Origin: Caldifarciminota bacterium
GTDB lineage: Bacteria; Hydrothermota; Tepidihabitantia; SM23-42
Direction: 5' to 3'
Assembly (NCBI GenBank): GCA_027026255.1
Contig: JALVOT010000017.1
Location: forward strand, 1-64,000
Length of the DNA: 64,000 nucleotides
Part shown: piece after piece, positions 5,370 through 13,479 of the stretch
Layout: the number at the start of each line of letters is the position of its first letter
Position numbering within the stretch: the stretch's first letter is position 1
Notes under the pieces: model-generated
The model's database searches: none
What the model was told of the DNA's origin: nothing
The model's input: the letters and a program-made list of their open reading frames with translations, nothing else
Position numbers and translations under genes: made by a program

Positions 5370-6941
5370 CTACGGTCGATATCTCAAAGGACAGGCAAGA
5401 CAGCGATCCGCCTCTTTTCTTAATTCTTCCTCTGATGCCCTTAATTCAACCTCTAAGAAATCATTTTTTCTCTCTTCCACATCCCTATGGGGAATCTTTA
5501 TTCTTGGTAAATCCTTAATAGGTAGAACCTCAACCCGGGGCATATAAGATTTTTTAAAGAATCTTCCAATTCCTGGTGCTATTCCCCTTAGTGAAAAATC
5601 AATCAAATCGGCAACCTCTTTTGCCTGACCAACCGCATGAGCAAGGGTCTTACTCCCCAGCACTGCATCACCACCGGCAAAAATCTTTGGATGGGAGGTT
5701 CTGCCGTTTTTCACCTTTATACTTCCATTCTGATTGACCTTTAAGTACTTTCTCAGAAAAGCTGAATCCGGAATTTGACCGCAGGCCAAAACCAACCGGT
5801 CAAGTTCCACCTCAAATTCACTATCCGGCATAATTTCAATTCTTCCTTTTCTTCCTTCCGGTGCCGCGGTTTTAATAAATGTTACCCGACCGTCTTCCAC
5901 ACGCTGGGGCAGACAAAGTGGCACAATCTCAATTCCCTCTTCCCGTGCCTCTTCTCGATCTTCGTGCTCGCACGGCATATCTTCAATCCTTCTCCGATAA
6001 TAGATTGTTACTTTATTACCCTGCCTTATCAAACTGCGTGCCACATCAATTGCTGTATTACCTCCACCAACCACCCCGACCCTGCCCAGATGAAATTCCT
6101 TACCCTTTTTTATTTCTTTCAAAAGTTCAAGTCCGTTCAGGCAATTCTCTTCACCAAGGATATTCAGCTTTATCGGTTTCCCGGCACCGGTGGCAACAAA
6201 TAGAGCATCGTATTTCTGGAGCAGTTCATCCAGGGAAATATCCGCGCCGACCCTGACCCCGCACTTAAGCTCTATACCACAATTCAAAATCTTTTCGATC
6301 TCTTCGTCAAGCACTGAGGAGGATAATCGAAATTCAGGAATAAAGGTTCTTAGAACACCACCCGGCATCTCTTCTTTTTCATAAATCGTAACTCCATAGC
6401 CTTTTTTAACAAGAAAATAACCAGCAGCCAGACCACAGGGACCTGCACCAATAATTCCGATTCTTTTATCCCTCTTTTTATGATTACATTGAGGCGGAGA
6501 CATTTTCACTGCCGATTTGAGATATTTTATTGCCACGGGTTTATCAATACCACGACGGGTGCATTTATCTTCACAGGGTGCCGGGCATATCCTTTCTAAT
6601 ATCTTAAAAAAAGGAAAGAATGGATATTCTTCTTTACTATCTGTAGCAATAAGATTTATATAAATCCAGGGAGTGATACCTGCCGGACACGCCTTTTCAC
6701 AGGGCGGTTTATCATATGTCGCACCTTTGTATGCATCATAGATATTATAAAGCCAGAATAGTATCCAGACACCAACGATACCCCAGAATGCAGGATTCAG
6801 CCCGGTCCAGATGTTTTTCATTAAGAAAATAGAACCGTAAAAGATTACTGCAAATGCAATTCCCACCCATAATCTGCCCTCGTAGACCTGGCCGCCTCCA
6901 ACAATAAATATCGAAATGATTATTGACTTAGCGGACTTCAT
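5370..6941 (-). CDS. Membrane-anchored GltD-like Fe-S flavoprotein oxidoreductase
   Basis: 523 residues. About 70 N-terminal residues form two or three membrane helices. A glutamate-synthase-small-subunit-like body follows: Cys81, Cys85, Cys119, Cys123 and Cys127 in CEKACPAGI and CPAPCEDKC (two 4Fe-4S clusters in relatives), an FAD site IGIIGAGPCGLAAG (from 161), an NAD(P) site VGVVGGGNTAIDVA, and the late FAD motif IFAGGDAV. Such modules pass electrons from NAD(P)H through FAD to Fe-S clusters. The membrane anchor is unusual for this family. The gene overlaps the NapH-like gene upstream by 14 bases, suggesting that protein is its partner. Confidence 0.85.
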   Translation of the reverse strand: MKSAKSIIISIFIVGGGQVYEGRLWVGIAFAVIFYGSIFLMKNIWTGLNPAFWGIVGVWILFWLYNIYDAYKGATYDKPPCEKACPAGITPWIYINLIATDSKEEYPFFPFFKILERICPAPCEDKCTRRGIDKPVAIKYLKSAVKMSPPQCNHKKRDKRIGIIGAGPCGLAAGYFLVKKGYGVTIYEKEEMPGGVLRTFIPEFRLSSSVLDEEIEKILNCGIELKCGVRVGADISLDELLQKYDALFVATGAGKPIKLNILGEENCLNGLELLKEIKKGKEFHLGRVGVVGGGNTAIDVARSLIRQGNKVTIYYRRRIEDMPCEHEDREEAREEGIEIVPLCLPQRVEDGRVTFIKTAAPEGRKGRIEIMPDSEFEVELDRLVLACGQIPDSAFLRKYLKVNQNGSIKVKNGRTSHPKIFAGGDAVLGSKTLAHAVGQAKEVADLIDFSLRGIAPGIGRFFKKSYMPRVEVLPIKDLPRIKIPHRDVEERKNDFLEVELRASEEELRKEADRCLACPLRYRP

Positions 6942-7716
6942 ATTTTATTGCCTGGGTTGGACAGACCTTTTTGCAATCAAGGCATCGGATACAATCAATA
7001 TGATTGGGAGACCTATGAATTGGAACATCCATCGGACAGACAAGCTGACAGGAACCGCAGTCGATACATCTTTTTTTATTGACCCGAATCCGTAAGAGAC
7101 TGAATCGATTGAATACTGAGTATATCGCACCAACCGGACAGAATGTTCGACAGAAAAACCGCTTGATGCCGATAGAACCCAAAAGAATAAAGATAAGAAT
7201 GGCAATCTTCATATAATAATGCCAGCCCACAAGTGCCCTGAGGTCGCCAGACCTGTCGGCAAGCACCAGAGGGATGCCGGCAATCAAACTGCCGTCCGGA
7301 CATAACTTACAGAACCACGGTTCTTCAGTCAGGTAGACAACAAACACTGCAACTCCGATCAACATCACATATTTAAGATATGAACACCAGTTCGGTAATT
7401 TAAGTTTGAATGATTTTATTTTATAAAGAATGTCCTGCAGAAATCCGAATGGACATATCCAGCCGCAGGACATCCTGCCGATTGTCATACCAACCGTGCT
7501 GAAGATCCCCAGAATATAAAATGGTATCAGTCTCAACCCGATAAAATGCTGAAGCGCACCCATTGGGCAGGAATACCAGGCAAGTGGACATCCCCAGCAA
7601 TTAAGGATTGGGGTGCAGTACCTCTTCAATACCCCCTGGTAGATTCCTCCAGAGAAAAACGCCGGAATATATGAATTATGAATAATGACAAAAACAATTT
7701 GAACGATTCTCTTCAT
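6928..7716 (-). CDS. NapH/NosR-like membrane protein with two 4Fe-4S clusters
   Basis: 262 residues with several membrane helices. It has the duplicated CxxxCP motif of NapH/NosR/RdxA proteins (Cys84-Cys88 in CGWICPFG, Cys189-Cys193 in CRTFCPVG). Two classical 4Fe-4S sites follow at the C-terminus (Cys217, 220, 223, 227 and Cys242, 245, 248, 252). Extra cysteines are Cys34, 40, 43 and 50 (NCWGCPLAWYSCP) and Cys136/139 (FCKLCP). Relatives move electrons across or along the inner membrane. Its position between a flavoprotein and periplasmic thioredoxins suggests it links the two (inference). Confidence 0.85.
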   Translation of the reverse strand: MKRIVQIVFVIIHNSYIPAFFSGGIYQGVLKRYCTPILNCWGCPLAWYSCPMGALQHFIGLRLIPFYILGIFSTVGMTIGRMSCGWICPFGFLQDILYKIKSFKLKLPNWCSYLKYVMLIGVAVFVVYLTEEPWFCKLCPDGSLIAGIPLVLADRSGDLRALVGWHYYMKIAILIFILLGSIGIKRFFCRTFCPVGAIYSVFNRFSLLRIRVNKKRCIDCGSCQLVCPMDVPIHRSPNHIDCIRCLDCKKVCPTQAIKYEVR

Positions 7717-7868: not shown

Positions 7869-9386
7869 TTAAAAGATGCTGGAAAGCACCACCTTCACAC
7901 CCTTAAACGGTTCCTCAAATCTGCATACCCCGCCTGAACAGACAAGGCCGCCCTTCTCACCGCCTACCCTTATCCTTAAATTATGGCGGTTTGTAAGGTC
8001 AAGGCTCAATTCTGCCAGGGGCCAGGCCTTCTCATTACCCAGTTTATGTATAAGCCATGCAGGAATCCGATTACGCCATTCATATCTGAGGGTGAGAATG
8101 AAAAGTTCTGGCCTGCCAACACCGAATGTGATGCAGGGTTCATAAAAATCGCTTGTATCACATCGGATAAGGTTATGTTCATACTCAACCTCAACATAGA
8201 ATGGTCCAAAATTATAACTGATATCGCCGTATGGTTTTGTTTCAGTCTTGCGATTGATACCAATTTCAATCTGCTGTTTGATAAGACGGTCCAGACCGGT
8301 GGTTATCTCTAAATCGACAGTAGGATTGGACTTAAGCTTCAGGGTTTGTTCTAATACGCCGGACTGCTCCTTTGAAGGCATATTGATTGTCTGATTAATC
8401 CAGTCCTTGGTTGTATCATGCTGGGTTATCTTATTATTCTCAGCTTCAAAGGATATAAAATCAACCGGCGAAAAATTGACTGATACCCCATAACCAATCT
8501 CATCCATTCCCCGATTCACAGATATCCCGGACTTTATCGGCGTAGGAACCTCATTATATCGGTATCCAGCACCACCGAATCCCATCGTATCATAATCAAC
8601 ATACTGCATTGAAATTCCGAATCCGGGAACGGAAAACCCGAGTGTAGCAAGAAGCCCATCACCCTTCAATCTCCCACCAATAACCGGATGACAGCCAAGA
8701 TGTTTTCCATATTCAAAATAAGTCTCAAAAGGCCCAAACTGACATCCCAGGTTACCACCGAACAATTCTGTAAATGCCTTTGGTGTAAGGTCAACATTAC
8801 GATTCACCCGAACATATCTTGCCCCAAGGTCAAGTTTTGGAATTATCTTTGTCTCCAGATTTATTCCCCTGATCTGATCCGTAGTATCATTTTTTATCTT
8901 ATATATATTCTCTTCAAAGAATATATTCCTCGGCCTGCCGGCGATTAAACTCAACCTGCTTCTAAGATATTTTAAATCCGCCCGCACCCCGAATAAGGAA
9001 TTATCATTACGGAAATCTTCATCAAGAAATTGATTCAGAACCAGACCACGACCGAATGTTGGGTAGAATCTACCATAAACAAAATTCACTGGGTCCTTAC
9101 GATATTGCACCGTATAATTAATATAACGAAGTTTTTCAGAACTGGGCAGTGATGGATTCCACAAGAACAGGGCACCCTTTACTGTTAAATCGCGGTAGCT
9201 TAAAGAAAGTTTCAGTTTATCTTCTAAATGTTCTTTATAATTTAAAGAATCTAAGGATTCATCAACGAATACCCAGTACTCGGCATGATTAGACCCACGC
9301 AGACGCACATTCGCACCGAAAACAGGCATAAACAAAAATATTGCGAACAATAAAAGCCAGTGACTATTATTTTTCTTTTGATTCAT
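7869..9386 (-). CDS. DUF6029-like outer-membrane beta-barrel protein
   Basis: 505 residues from the ATG at 9386, which lies inside the end of the TlpA-like gene. A longer reading from 9560 is out-of-frame overlap with that gene and is rejected. Signal peptide (HWLLLFAIFLFMPVFGA), then alternating amphipathic strands typical of a large barrel, and a C-terminal GGLVCSGGVCRFEEP segment that I associate with DUF6029 proteins. It ends in a hydrophobic strand with terminal Phe, as in outer-membrane proteins. Within the redox operon it may present a redox Cys pair or act as a channel (inference). Confidence 0.75.
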   Translation of the reverse strand: MNQKKNNSHWLLLFAIFLFMPVFGANVRLRGSNHAEYWVFVDESLDSLNYKEHLEDKLKLSLSYRDLTVKGALFLWNPSLPSSEKLRYINYTVQYRKDPVNFVYGRFYPTFGRGLVLNQFLDEDFRNDNSLFGVRADLKYLRSRLSLIAGRPRNIFFEENIYKIKNDTTDQIRGINLETKIIPKLDLGARYVRVNRNVDLTPKAFTELFGGNLGCQFGPFETYFEYGKHLGCHPVIGGRLKGDGLLATLGFSVPGFGISMQYVDYDTMGFGGAGYRYNEVPTPIKSGISVNRGMDEIGYGVSVNFSPVDFISFEAENNKITQHDTTKDWINQTINMPSKEQSGVLEQTLKLKSNPTVDLEITTGLDRLIKQQIEIGINRKTETKPYGDISYNFGPFYVEVEYEHNLIRCDTSDFYEPCITFGVGRPELFILTLRYEWRNRIPAWLIHKLGNEKAWPLAELSLDLTNRHNLRIRVGGEKGGLVCSGGVCRFEEPFKGVKVVLSSIF

Positions 9387-9888
9387 TCTCAGGTTCCTTT
9401 TTAAATAACTCCCTGATTTTGGCGACAACCTTCTTCTCATCCCCTGGTTTATAACCCTGATGGGTAAAGACAATCTTCTTATTCTGATCAATAATGAAAC
9501 TGGTGGGCATTGCCTGAACATCATAGAGTTCACGCATATTATTTTCCGGATCAAGCACAACGATATAACGCCATTTATGGCTTCGGGCGAATGGTTTTAC
9601 CTTGGGAACTGCCCTGGTTTTATCCTGACTAATAGCAAGAAGATTAATTCCCAGGGAATCAAATTCATCATAATAAGGCTTCAAGGCATCCAGTTCCTTG
9701 ATACACATCTTACACCACATTGCCCAGAAACTCATAAATACCGGACCTTTAGCAAGTAGGGAATCAAGACAGACTGTATTACCATCAATATCTTCTAAGG
9801 TAAAATCCGGGGCATCAGAAAACTCGCCTTCCTGTGCCCAGAGCATAATTAACGGCAGTATAAAAATAAAAATTAATTTTTTCATCAT
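9367..9888 (-). CDS. TlpA-like periplasmic thioredoxin
   Basis: 173 residues. Signal peptide (about 1-18), then AhpC/TSA-Redoxin-type strands (APDFTLEDIDGNTVCLDSL), the active site WCKMC with Cys59 and Cys62, and the cis-proline loop AMPTSFIID. TlpA/ResA proteins reduce disulfides in the periplasm and need electrons from an inner-membrane donor, usually CcdA/DsbD. No such donor lies in this operon; a NapH-like protein does. The ATG overlaps the stop of the selenoprotein gene (ATGA), and the 3' end overlaps the barrel gene by 20 bases. Confidence 0.9.
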   Translation of the reverse strand: MMKKLIFIFILPLIMLWAQEGEFSDAPDFTLEDIDGNTVCLDSLLAKGPVFMSFWAMWCKMCIKELDALKPYYDEFDSLGINLLAISQDKTRAVPKVKPFARSHKWRYIVVLDPENNMRELYDVQAMPTSFIIDQNKKIVFTHQGYKPGDEKKVVAKIRELFKKEPENESKEK

Positions 9889-10613
9889 TCCTCCAAAAAT
9901 TTTTCTCCTTTTGACTGCATAATCTCTTTGGTATCCATATCCTGAACAAAAACAACCGTCCGCATCCTGTCAACCCCTATCGAATGAGAAAATGTAATCG
10001 TTGTATCAAGGCTATCAGGATAAATAAGATTCACGGGAAATTGAAAAAGCTGACGGCAAACACGATAATAGGTATATGAATGATTTGATGCACCAGGCAA
10101 ACTATCTTCAAGGATTGCAACAAATGCATTCATCTCATCTTCAGGAATTGTATCCGCGGCCACAATTTTGACCCTGACACTACCGGTTGAATTGGAAGCG
10201 CTTGCCTCAACCGTCAAATTAAAATATGGAGCCTTTGACTGGGCAATCCTGATATGCTCTTCATAGATTTCATTAAACGGTGGGCTTTCCACAAAGACGT
10301 GGTCTGTGCCATCAAAGACCGTGGTCGGTAAAAGGGGATTGTCATAAAATTCCCTGCGCTGATGGCTCTTTGGATTTTCATACGGCTGGTTAGTATGATA
10401 TGAAATCACTACTAATGTATCCCCTAATGATGCAAGACTATCAAGGAGGGCCTGCTCCGCAAGCCAGCAATATGGTCAACCATCCTCAGTAAACAATTCC
10501 GCAAGCACAGTGCGGCTTGTTGGTTCCGGAAAGTGAACCTCAGGAGCCTCTGAACAGCGCACAAAAAAACCAACAAGTATTAAACCGGGTAAAGATTTTA
10601 ATAATTTCTTCAT
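9885..10613 (-). CDS. Selenocysteine-containing Omp28/thioredoxin-like protein (UPYC)
   Basis: 242 residues if the in-frame TGA at 10478-10476 is read as selenocysteine 46. Residues 1-20 are a signal peptide, possibly lipoprotein-like (Cys20, imperfect lipobox). Then comes VLAELFTEDG-U-P-Y-C-WLAEQALL, where U replaces the first Cys of a CPYC thioredoxin/glutaredoxin site. The Trx fold continues through VVISYH and the cis-Pro loop LPTTVFDG, followed by an Omp28-like beta domain. A hairpin that fits bacterial SECIS rules starts 10 nt after the TGA. The gene itself ends with TGA, so UGA has both meanings here. First gene of the redox operon. Confidence 0.85.
10449..10465 (-). promoter_or_regulatory. 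Bacterial SECIS-like hairpin for Sec46
   Basis: The mRNA sequence is GGCUUGCGGAGCAGGCC: seven pairs (one G-U) closing a GGA loop. The loop begins 17 nt after the UGA (10478-10476), within the 16-37 nt range described for bacterial SECIS elements, and has the required G at its start. Confidence 0.75.
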
Positions 10614-10701: not shown

Positions 10702-12606
10702 TTACCTTAGAAGAATTAATTTCTGTGTCTGAGTGTAGTCTGCAGCCTCAACTCTCACAAAGTAGACACCGGCGGAAACCAGATTATCTCTATCATCCCT
10801 TCGATTCCAGATAAGTTTTTCAGAACCAATATTCCTGAATTTCTTAATAAGTCTGCCTGTAGCATCAAAAACCGTAATCTCATCCAGGTTCTTAAGATTA
10901 AAGTTACTCAATTCAATGCTCACATTATCCCGAGAAGGATTGGGCCAGAGCATAAAATGCGGGGTGAGTGGCTTTGATTCAGCACATTCCTCAACCGCCA
11001 CAAGGCTGATGCCGAAGAAGTGCATAATTGAATCGAGCAAAGCTGCCCTGGTCGATACACCACTGCCGTCAACCAGACCGCCGAGTTCAAAAGAGGTGCC
11101 CACAGTCTTGTATGACCCGATATCCCGCGCTACACCACAATCATAATTGTTATTACCATCCCGAAAGATTAGAAAAGAACCGGAATCGGTTGGTGAGATA
11201 TGATCCATATAAGCATTATCACCGCCATAAGAAAAATTCATCTGATTGGTAAAGGTGCCGTTCTGTCCCACAACCGGACCCATATCACCGGACCCATCTC
11301 CGGTTGCATTAATACCGAAGAGCGGACCGAAATTATAACCACCCTCATTTCTGGGATCATAATACCAGACCTCACCACCCTCTAAGTACATCCTACCATT
11401 CTGATTCTGGAGAAAATCAACCAGGGTATTTGCTTCCGGGCTGTTATTTCTAATTACATAATTATCTGAATAAACCCCGACACAGACAAAGACCGCATAG
11501 TAATTTGCAAGTTCACTACTGGTCGGCAGTTTTACATCATAATTTCCTGAATACCCAAGATCAGAAAGGATATTATGTATCGCCCGACCTGATGCCGGTG
11601 TGAGATCTGGGTTCCAGACAAAATAGTGGATTCTGCCTACGACAACAGAAAAGTCAAAGGTATCCGTATATCCACCATCCGTAGCGATGAGCTTAAACAG
11701 GGCTTTATGACCCTGAGGAGCTGATGCACTGGCTGATATGGTATAGGGGTCGGCAGTATTCTCTTTTGTCGTGTCAACCGGAAGAGAACCAAAATTTCCG
11801 GAGTTGTCTGATATTGTTACATAGGAATCAGATGAGATGATGGTAGTGGAAAGATTGCTGAAGTTTACACCACCAATATTTTTTAAGGTAGCGGTTAAAT
11901 TAACGGTTTCACCCGGGTCAAGTCGGCCGTTGTTATTACCACCGCTGTCATAAATTGTATTTTTTATCAAAGCAAGATAGGGATTTGAACCGGTATAATT
12001 TAATGCAATATCATCGGCGAAGACCTTCGCCTCTTCTCGGGCACCTCAACATGTATGCTCGGTCTTTGCATAAAGGGTAATCTTTATTTTTTTAACATCC
12101 TGTGGGTTTACACCAGAAAGATTGTTGAGTTCATCATTAATATTAAAGCTATAATTATTCCAGTTTGTATTTGAAGCAATAATCAAATGTGAGGTTGAAG
12201 AATTTGCCCAGGGAAACGGCTCACTGAATCTACAGATCTTTGTATCACCAAGCAAAGAACCGCTTTCATCAAGATAACTGATTATTACGGCGGCACCCGC
12301 ACAGCAAAGTGTGTCCGCATTATTATCCCAGGCATAAAGTTTTGCCTTAACTGCGAACTGCAGATCGGTGGTCGGAATATTCACCACCTGCCAGAGTTGG
12401 GCAGTACCGCTGCCATTATTCACCAGACTCCTTGCTTCATAGTCAGGGTCGGTGTCATAATTTGTTGCTCGATCCACCACTGCATTACCACCGGATGTAC
12501 TCTCATACCAACCCGTATTAAGGGGTTGTTCAAAATCACCATTGGTTAATAGAACACTCGCCTGGGTCAAACCGATAATAAATAATAAGGCGAGAAACTT
12601 ACGCAT
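10702..12606 (-). CDS. Secreted selenoprotein with Cys-Sec pair and C-terminal sorting domain
   Basis: 634 residues if the TGA at 12048-12046 is selenocysteine 187; the frame continues uninterrupted on both sides. Signal peptide 1-17, then a jelly-roll (CBM-like) domain that opens with LTNGDFE and closes across the Sec site (KTEHTC-U-GAREEAKVFADDIALNY), a CARDB-like beta domain (GRLDPGETVNLTATLKNIGG), a central globular domain of about 220 residues and a C-terminal sorting/FlgD-like module (WPNPSRDN ... GVYFVRV ... QKLILLR). Other cysteines in the first domain are Cys101, 102, 125 and 186. A GGUC-loop hairpin follows the TGA. SD AAAGGAGG precedes the ATG. It follows the TrmB-type regulator by 12 bases. 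Confidence 0.85.
12016..12031 (-). promoter_or_regulatory. Bacterial SECIS-like hairpin for Sec187
   Basis: The mRNA GGCGAAGGUCUUCGCC forms six perfect pairs around a GGUC loop that begins 20 nt after the UGA at 12048-12046. The E. coli fdhF SECIS has a GGUC apical loop at almost the same distance (from memory). Perfect complementarity inside a coding region is unlikely by chance. Confidence 0.85.
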
Positions 12607-12618
12607 AAAAACCTCCTT

Positions 12619-13479
12619 TTATCTTACAACTTTTTTCTGGAAAAAGGTTCTTTCTGAACCCTTTTTCCTTAATGATTTAAGAACCTGATAATCATCAGCC
12701 TGCTGCCAGAGATGGTCAAACAGAATCCGTGAAGCCCGGGCAAAACCAGGATGTTCAATCACCAGCATTGTCAAGAGTGGTACTGCGGATTCAGCATTAT
12801 CAAGAGCCATAAGCACATATCTCTGATCAAAAACATACATCTTGATGGGAAGTTTCTTAACCACGCGCGCCTTTTCTCCAGCCCGAACACATTTTCCGAT
12901 ATGTTTAATTGTTATATCAACCTTATTCGGCTCAGGATATTCATAAAGCATCCTTACCACAATACCCGTTTTTAATATCTCATATTCCACAGTCTCCTGT
13001 TCAATCAGCTTATCTATTCTATATTCCGTGGCAAACGGCGGTTTAACAAAACCGATCAACTCTTTTTTGGTATTTTTCACCAGACTTAGATATCGCTCAT
13101 GGATTGAATTTATATCTTTAATAATCTCCACATATCCACACAGTTCCTTCAGGTTTTTCTCTTCTCTTATCTTTTCATAAAGGGGACAGAAAAAATTGCA
13201 GATTGCATTTGCCAGTTCCTTTTTTTCCTGCAGTTCATTTTCATACTGGTTTATCAGATTACTCAACGCCCTTTTCGGCTCCACTGCCTGGTATTTTCTC
13301 TTTCGGTTCATCAACTTCTCAATACACATTCCACGCAGAGCCATCTTATGGGTAATTTCGTAAACCTTGGTTCTTGGGACACTGGTAAGTTCATAGATTT
13401 CAGAGGCGCTCATCTCTCTTTTTTGCAATAAGGCGGTATAAATCTTTGCCTCGGTTTCTGAGATTCCAAGTTCGACCAT
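12619..13479 (-). CDS. TrmB-family transcriptional regulator
   Basis: 286 residues from the ATG at 13479. The N-terminal winged helix has the TrmB pattern (ELGISETEAKIYTALLQ, SASEIYELTSVPRTKVYEITHKM). A coiled-coil linker and a C-terminal effector domain (IEHPGFARASRILFDHLW) follow. TrmB proteins respond to sugars or other small ligands. The start is uncertain: the good SD AAAGGAGG lies 6 nt before an in-frame ATA at 13506, which would add IDKEDYIRK, whereas the ATG has only a purine run 2 nt away. The regulator shares a transcript with the second selenoprotein and may control it. Confidence 0.85.
   Translation of the reverse strand: MVELGISETEAKIYTALLQKREMSASEIYELTSVPRTKVYEITHKMALRGMCIEKLMNRKRKYQAVEPKRALSNLINQYENELQEKKELANAICNFFCPLYEKIREEKNLKELCGYVEIIKDINSIHERYLSLVKNTKKELIGFVKPPFATEYRIDKLIEQETVEYEILKTGIVVRMLYEYPEPNKVDITIKHIGKCVRAGEKARVVKKLPIKMYVFDQRYVLMALDNAESAVPLLTMLVIEHPGFARASRILFDHLWQQADDYQVLKSLRKKGSERTFFQKKVVR

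Follow-up and report, generated by a model that had tools for sequence, protein, structure and literature searches.

A predicted family of secreted selenoproteins with a carbohydrate-binding-module-like beta-sandwich in candidate division WOR-3 and its relatives

On the minus strand of the 64,000-nucleotide stretch of DNA analysed here (the window), a single reading frame extends from an ATG at 12606 to a TAA at 10704-10702, and its sole internal TGA is codon 187 (12048-12046). Does this TGA end the gene or is it read as selenocysteine (Sec), and, in the latter case, what might Sec do in a secreted protein? A first-pass annotation, made from the sequence alone, had read both halves as one protein of 634 codons. 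Translation of TGA as U indeed gives such a frame, and homologues align across the site. The same annotation held that the 186-residue N-terminal frame would otherwise stop in mid-domain, in agreement with the structural model described below, in which a protein made without readthrough would lack the domain's last strand. The locus and its neighbouring genes are listed in Table 1.

Table 1. Features of the predicted selenoprotein gene and its neighbourhood (coordinates in the window)
Feature	Coordinates	Strand	Evidence or remarks
Predicted selenoprotein gene	10702..12606	-	634 codons + TAA, Sec = codon 187; homologues align through TGA
Shine-Dalgarno AGGAGG	12612..12617	-	Upstream of ATG 12606; strong, from sequence
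UGA codon for Sec187	12046..12048	-	Loop joining last two strands (predicted); TGA in 105/106 domains
Signal peptide, residues 1-16 (approximate)	12559..12606	-	Hydrophobic N-terminus; low-confidence helix 2-13 in model
Sec-bearing CBM-like beta-sandwich, residues 17-205	11992..12558	-	AlphaFold model and Foldseek CBM matches
Type IX-type sorting domain, residues 553-631	10714..10950	-	Por_Secre_tail E=9.9e-10; TIGR04183 E=6.2e-12
Cys186 codon, candidate resolving Cys	12049..12051	-	Cys in 59/105
Cys101 codon, alternative candidate resolving Cys	12304..12306	-	Cys in 43/106
bSECIS hairpin GGCGAA-GGUC-UUCGCC	12016..12031	-	Also encodes A193-K-V-F-A197; covariation
Omp28-like selenoprotein, U-P-Y-C motif	9885..10613	-	TGA 10478-10476
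TlpA/ResA-like thiol-disulfide oxidoreductase	9367..9888	-	AhpC-TSA E=1.7e-24; ResA E=2e-26, under family cut-off
DUF6029 protein (start uncertain)	7869..9560	-	Pfam E=2.5e-23; syntenic in relatives
NapH-like membrane polyferredoxin	6928..7716	-	Profile matches; syntenic in relatives
GltD-like NAD(P)H flavoprotein, N-terminal membrane segment	5370..6941	-	NF009410 E=1.8e-100, under family cut-off; syntenic in 4 relatives
TrmB-type regulator	12619..13479	-	Directly upstream; TrmB E=9.3e-18

Conservation of the in-frame UGA

A search of 150 relatives with the N-terminal domain gave matches in 50 genomes, nearly all with one in-frame TGA. In an alignment of 106 distinct complete domains, drawn from about 50 genomes, the site is TGA in 105 and TGC in one. 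The TGA picture was unchanged in a profile search of 147 genomes of the phylum, which placed the family in 50 of them. The family comprises more than 100 genes, with up to nine copies per genome, and all sequences compared are draft or metagenome-derived. Homologues that end at residue 186, which the first-pass annotation had named as telling against its reading, were not found, and the TGA is kept across the approximately 50 genomes. Neither did homologues with Cys-Cys at residues 186-187 turn up, for which it had proposed a search; this outcome is informative because the homologues have Sec rather than Cys at the position (105/106).

A scan of named genomes yielded 55 loci, mostly from candidate division WOR-3 / Ca. 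Stahlbacteria, with a minority titled Eisenbacteria, Krumholzibacteriota, Thermoanaerobaculales and Cloacimonadota. All loci that cover the site have the TGA and the hairpin described below; the scan pattern favours the peptide coded by that hairpin and is thus not unbiased with respect to Cys forms. Outside the phylum, profile searches found the Sec form to be rare (1/396, 3/47 and 1/80 genomes), and the copies from other phyla also carry TGA.

Cys homologues are rare, namely L108 (TGC) and the distant L226 (TGT). The former (G056:C1:2500112-2500684) has a weakened hairpin and lies in a genome that also has eight Sec copies. It may represent a Sec-to-Cys switch within a strong paralogue expansion of nine members on that chromosome.

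The hairpin and the selenocysteine machinery

The hairpin GGCGAAGGTCTTCGCC at 12031-12016 begins 14 nt past the TGA. The first-pass description of a perfect six-pair stem with a GGUC loop 20 nt after the UGA is accurate, and the stem covaries among homologues. Its dimensions fit the published bSECIS model, which has a stem of 4-16 bp and a loop of 3-9 nt with G among the first two loop bases, 16-37 nt from the UGA. The folding energy is -13.1 kcal/mol for a 49-nt stretch and -7.3 for the bare 16-nt hairpin, the latter being borderline against the bSECIS limit of -7.5 kcal/mol or lower. As background, some 6-pair bSECIS-like hairpin lies downstream of 8.6% of all TGAs in the window, and one with an NGTN tetraloop downstream of 0.45%. 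Taken alone, the window hairpin is mildly unusual and would be weak evidence; it becomes decisive because the TGA is conserved in 105/106 domains and the hairpin covaries.

A 16-nt hairpin at bSECIS distance is present in 105/105 TGA genes, in 22 distinct variants, and its loop starts 17-26 nt after the UGA across the family, inside the published range. Across the 22 variants, 129 of 132 pairs are formed, compared with a mean of 104.8 and a maximum of 114 in shuffles (0/500 as good). Double-change cells number 27, against 7.4 expected from shuffles (0/500), and slid controls are at most 56% paired. Two of the varying pairs, 1-16 and 4-13, link third codon positions, and selection must therefore act on the RNA itself. 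The remaining two alter the protein: residues 194/196 are KF (55), ES (35), RL (6), EF (5), RF (2), QC (1) or WY (1), and covary because their codons pair in the hairpin. Among Sec members A193, V195 and A197 are near invariant. These patterns fit a peptide, A-x-V-x-A-D, that would be imposed by pairing in the hairpin; the A-x-V-x-A motif is missing in the two distant relatives without Sec, L226 and L225, the latter having no Cys.

In the genome to which the window belongs (G000), selA, selB and tRNA-Sec are contiguous on contig 15, and selD was also found. The family is present in 45/61 genomes with SelB over the cut-off and in 5/86 without (Fisher p=1.2e-18, genomes treated as independent); these five are all drafts, 53-91% complete, two of them at about 90%. 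From the combined sequence evidence, the gene product is almost certainly a genuine selenoprotein. TGA is the stop of 21/48 genes in the window, so UGA is an ordinary stop here and a code change does not account for the frame. We give hardly any credence to a sequencing error, pseudogene, alternative code or pair of genes split at the UGA: either frame, of 186 codons upstream or 422 codons downstream, could pass for a gene, but the TGA is shared by 105 distinct genes with a covarying hairpin in a genome with Sec machinery, termination would precede the last strand of the domain, no ribosome-binding site is apparent upstream of the downstream TTG, and TGA conservation together with stop usage rules out error, split gene and alternative code.

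Several further observations concern the machinery. Two SelB genes are present in G000 (C15:4506-6383 and C17:75150-77036), and G017 likewise has two over the cut-off; such paired genes might serve different SECIS types. There are also two SelD genes in G000, each with an in-frame TGA (C17:80273-81196 and C17:85936-86841; L037 and L038). In the L038 SelD, the N-terminus is extended by a stretch with many Cys motifs that resembles ferredoxin-thioredoxin reductase and ends in CPGU. In G025, two tandem Sec beta-sandwich genes directly follow a selA-like ORF and selB (L218:428-3949), and in G007 selB is found about 2.4 kb from another family copy.

Fold, secretion, cysteines and operon

AlphaFold was run on 50 sequences. 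The model of the Sec domain is mostly beta sandwich (pLDDT 95.3, pTM 0.92) and places Sec187 in the loop preceding the last strand. Among solved structures, the best Foldseek matches are carbohydrate-binding modules (CBMs), domains of phage tailspikes and the sugar-binding domain of Fbs1 (E ~1e-6 to 5e-5, TM ~0.5); with the full-length model, TM was ~0.2 and uninformative. Sequence searches of the Sec domain against Pfam, NCBIfam and solved-structure sequences gave nothing convincing. In the window protein, the domain had no Pfam match at E<=1, hence the CBM_4_9 cut-off was not reached, and NCBIfam gave no match over cut-off except the tail. CBM_4_9 was matched at E<0.01 in 2/48 members, most members matching no CBM model. 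The NGDFE...GW start and ADDI-type end of the Sec domain resemble CBM_4_9.

The CBM-like jelly roll proposed in the first-pass annotation thus finds its counterpart in the predicted model and its Foldseek CBM matches. Secretion and a type IX-type sorting tail, also proposed there, are upheld by the hydrophobic N-terminus and by tail scores over curated cut-offs (PF18962, 39 bits against 27; TIGR04183, 45 against 23). As predictions, both the CBM-like fold and secretion are considered well supported. The sorting tail is present in 31/48 full-length members, and the middle of the window protein (approximately residues 206-535) is common to non-Sec paralogues of the same genome. Short members (212-234 residues) comprise just the Sec domain, and lipoprotein-like signals occur in some of them; the domain is therefore the functional unit.

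Across the domains compared, Cys is found at 186 in 59/105, at 101 in 43/106 and near 131 in 75/105. Not one of the 105 Sec domains is Cys-free at all three positions, against ~7.8 expected if these were independent, an absence partly explained by Cys near 131 being common already. Cys186 and Cys101 are anticorrelated (odds ratio 0.08, p=1.3e-8, phylogeny ignored); on the tree each Cys trait changes 8-11 times, with only 4 supported independent pairs, for which the sign test is not significant and has no power. The first-pass annotation had suggested that Cys101/Cys102 and Cys186/Sec187 may pair across the domain. The Cys186/Sec187 pair is present in the window protein but is not a family constant, and the frequency of Cys186 rules out a vicinal Cys186-Sec187 as the active motif of the family. 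Cys102 is near-unique to the window protein, its column being Trp in 70/106, and is ruled out as the Sec partner. A Cys101-Sec187 link is plausible, with Cys101 tending to occur where Cys186 is missing. The distribution is suggestive, but no more, of a resolving Cys that may shift among 186, 101 and 131.

The operon has the order Sec beta-sandwich gene, Omp28-like, TlpA/ResA, DUF6029, NapH-like and, in some genomes, also GltD-like, and relatives from several genera of the bacterial family to which the window belongs keep all or part of it. Beyond that family the gene does not adjoin the operon, and no common neighbour partner is evident. The Omp28-like gene had been annotated as the first of two selenoproteins, and its TGA is kept in 8/8 syntenic homologues. 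It has a 7-pair hairpin, GGCUUGC-GGA-GCAGGCC, at 10465-10449, and its product is related to NF045500 (32 bits against a cut-off of 200).

Omp28-like ORFs with late apparent starts, possibly due to a Sec TGA, are also found near Sec beta-sandwich genes at L219:4025-4876 and L218:11428-12162. The TrmB-type gene is a possible regulator of the operon; a homologue is seen only in a single relative, G011, at two loci that overlap. The GltD-like flavoprotein, with its N-terminal membrane segment, may provide an unusual link between NAD(P)H and thiols outside the cytoplasm.

Possible roles of selenocysteine and comparison with known systems

We suggest that SelB and tRNA-Sec decode UGA 187 by means of the downstream hairpin, and that Sec comes to lie at the edge of a CBM-like beta-sandwich outside the cytoplasm, presumably via the type IX-type tail or, in some short members, by display via a lipoprotein signal instead. 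Extracytoplasmic selenol redox chemistry is proposed for the domain because every Sec domain has Cys at 186, 101 or 131, and Sec would form a selenenylsulfide with a resolving Cys, which would sit at one or another of these positions in different members. In the window's bacterial family, recycling would proceed from NAD(P)H to the GltD-like flavoprotein, the membrane polyferredoxin, TlpA, the Omp28-type selenoprotein and finally the Sec domain.

This explanation as a whole (secreted selenoprotein, hairpin-read UGA, redox Sec with shifting Cys, recycling by the operon) is considered probable. Its parts differ in strength. The operon chain would probably recycle the Sec protein in the window's bacterial family, with roughly even odds or less for the electron route. 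A redox-active Sec falls slightly short of an even chance; the CBM fold is, to our knowledge, not a known redox fold, which counts against it. The notion of a CBM-type beta-sandwich turned extracellular selenoenzyme, with a moving resolving Cys and electrons brought from NAD(P)H to the cell surface via a dedicated operon, is tentative and would have to be called rather doubtful.

The constant presence of Cys at one of three positions would also suit a metal or metalloid ligand, that is, surface capture of a soft metal (Hg, Cu, Ni) by Sec and a nearby Cys with no redox turnover. Metal binding or processing, of mercury among others, occurs in other families of the 2026 inventory (PMC13188914). 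We regard this role as unlikely, since the operon in the window's bacterial family contains thiol-disulfide and electron-transfer genes rather than metal resistance genes, and no His/Cys cluster is conserved.

Sec could also stabilise or anchor the protein rather than serve in catalysis, either through a static selenenylsulfide or by bonding covalently to another surface component, in keeping with the extracellular location, the modelled CBM-like fold and partner Cys at varying sites. For such a purpose a disulfide would usually do, yet Cys forms amount to 1/106, and the reducing operon is conserved; a purely structural bond is thus quite unlikely. The invariance of Gln73 and the presence of Trp149 in 105/106 domains recall a Sec-Gln-Trp site akin to glutathione peroxidase chemistry. 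A peroxidase-like enzyme of this kind is nevertheless very unlikely, because the fold is unrelated to that of glutathione peroxidase and CBM-like relatives could keep both residues for packing.

If the proposed redox-active, secreted selenoprotein is real, the Sec beta-sandwich would bring a new fold to selenium catalysis. Thioredoxin-like folds prevail among characterised selenoproteins. The family presents a secreted beta-sandwich for which selenium seems all but indispensable, and a clean natural case of an mRNA hairpin setting protein sequence. The conserved operon makes extracytoplasmic selenol reduction directly testable. Annotation pipelines would split Sec beta-sandwich genes, and what looks like a broken gene would be a working selenium protein with an unexpected structure.

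The family of uncultured WOR-3 / Stahlbacteria and relatives is apparently undescribed. A May 2026 review inventoried 119 prokaryotic selenoprotein families, none of which, judged by its table, is CBM-like or type IX-tailed, and the Sec beta-sandwich family is absent from that table (PMC13188914). A literature search, with subscription literature and preprints largely outside its scope, found nothing on WOR-3/Stahlbacteria and selenium.

Thioredoxin-fold extracytoplasmic selenoproteins (TlpA, DsbA and peroxiredoxin types) share with the Sec domain the combination of Sec and a candidate resolving Cys, the position of which varies in peroxiredoxins, as proposed here. The Sec domain differs from them in fold and is without UxxC or CxxU. 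With type IX cargo (TIGR04183 / PF18962 tail) the window protein has in common its C-terminal sorting domain, over the curated cut-off. The Omp28-related selenoprotein (NF045500; "GOS_C" in the 2026 inventory, PMC13188914) is likewise secreted, and a relative of it is encoded by the next gene of the operon, but its UxxC motif is of the thioredoxin type, and a sequence relation to the beta-sandwich domain was not found. Known selenoprotein families usually have many Cys homologues (PMC12013277), whereas the Sec beta-sandwich family has almost none, and discovery via Cys homologues would therefore miss it. Closest in fold are the CBM_4_9 / CenC-like modules (CBM4, CBM16, CBM61, CBM22), which resemble the Sec domain as beta-sandwiches at TM ~0.5; in contrast to these modules, the Sec domain has Sec in the loop before its last strand and a bSECIS in the codons that follow.
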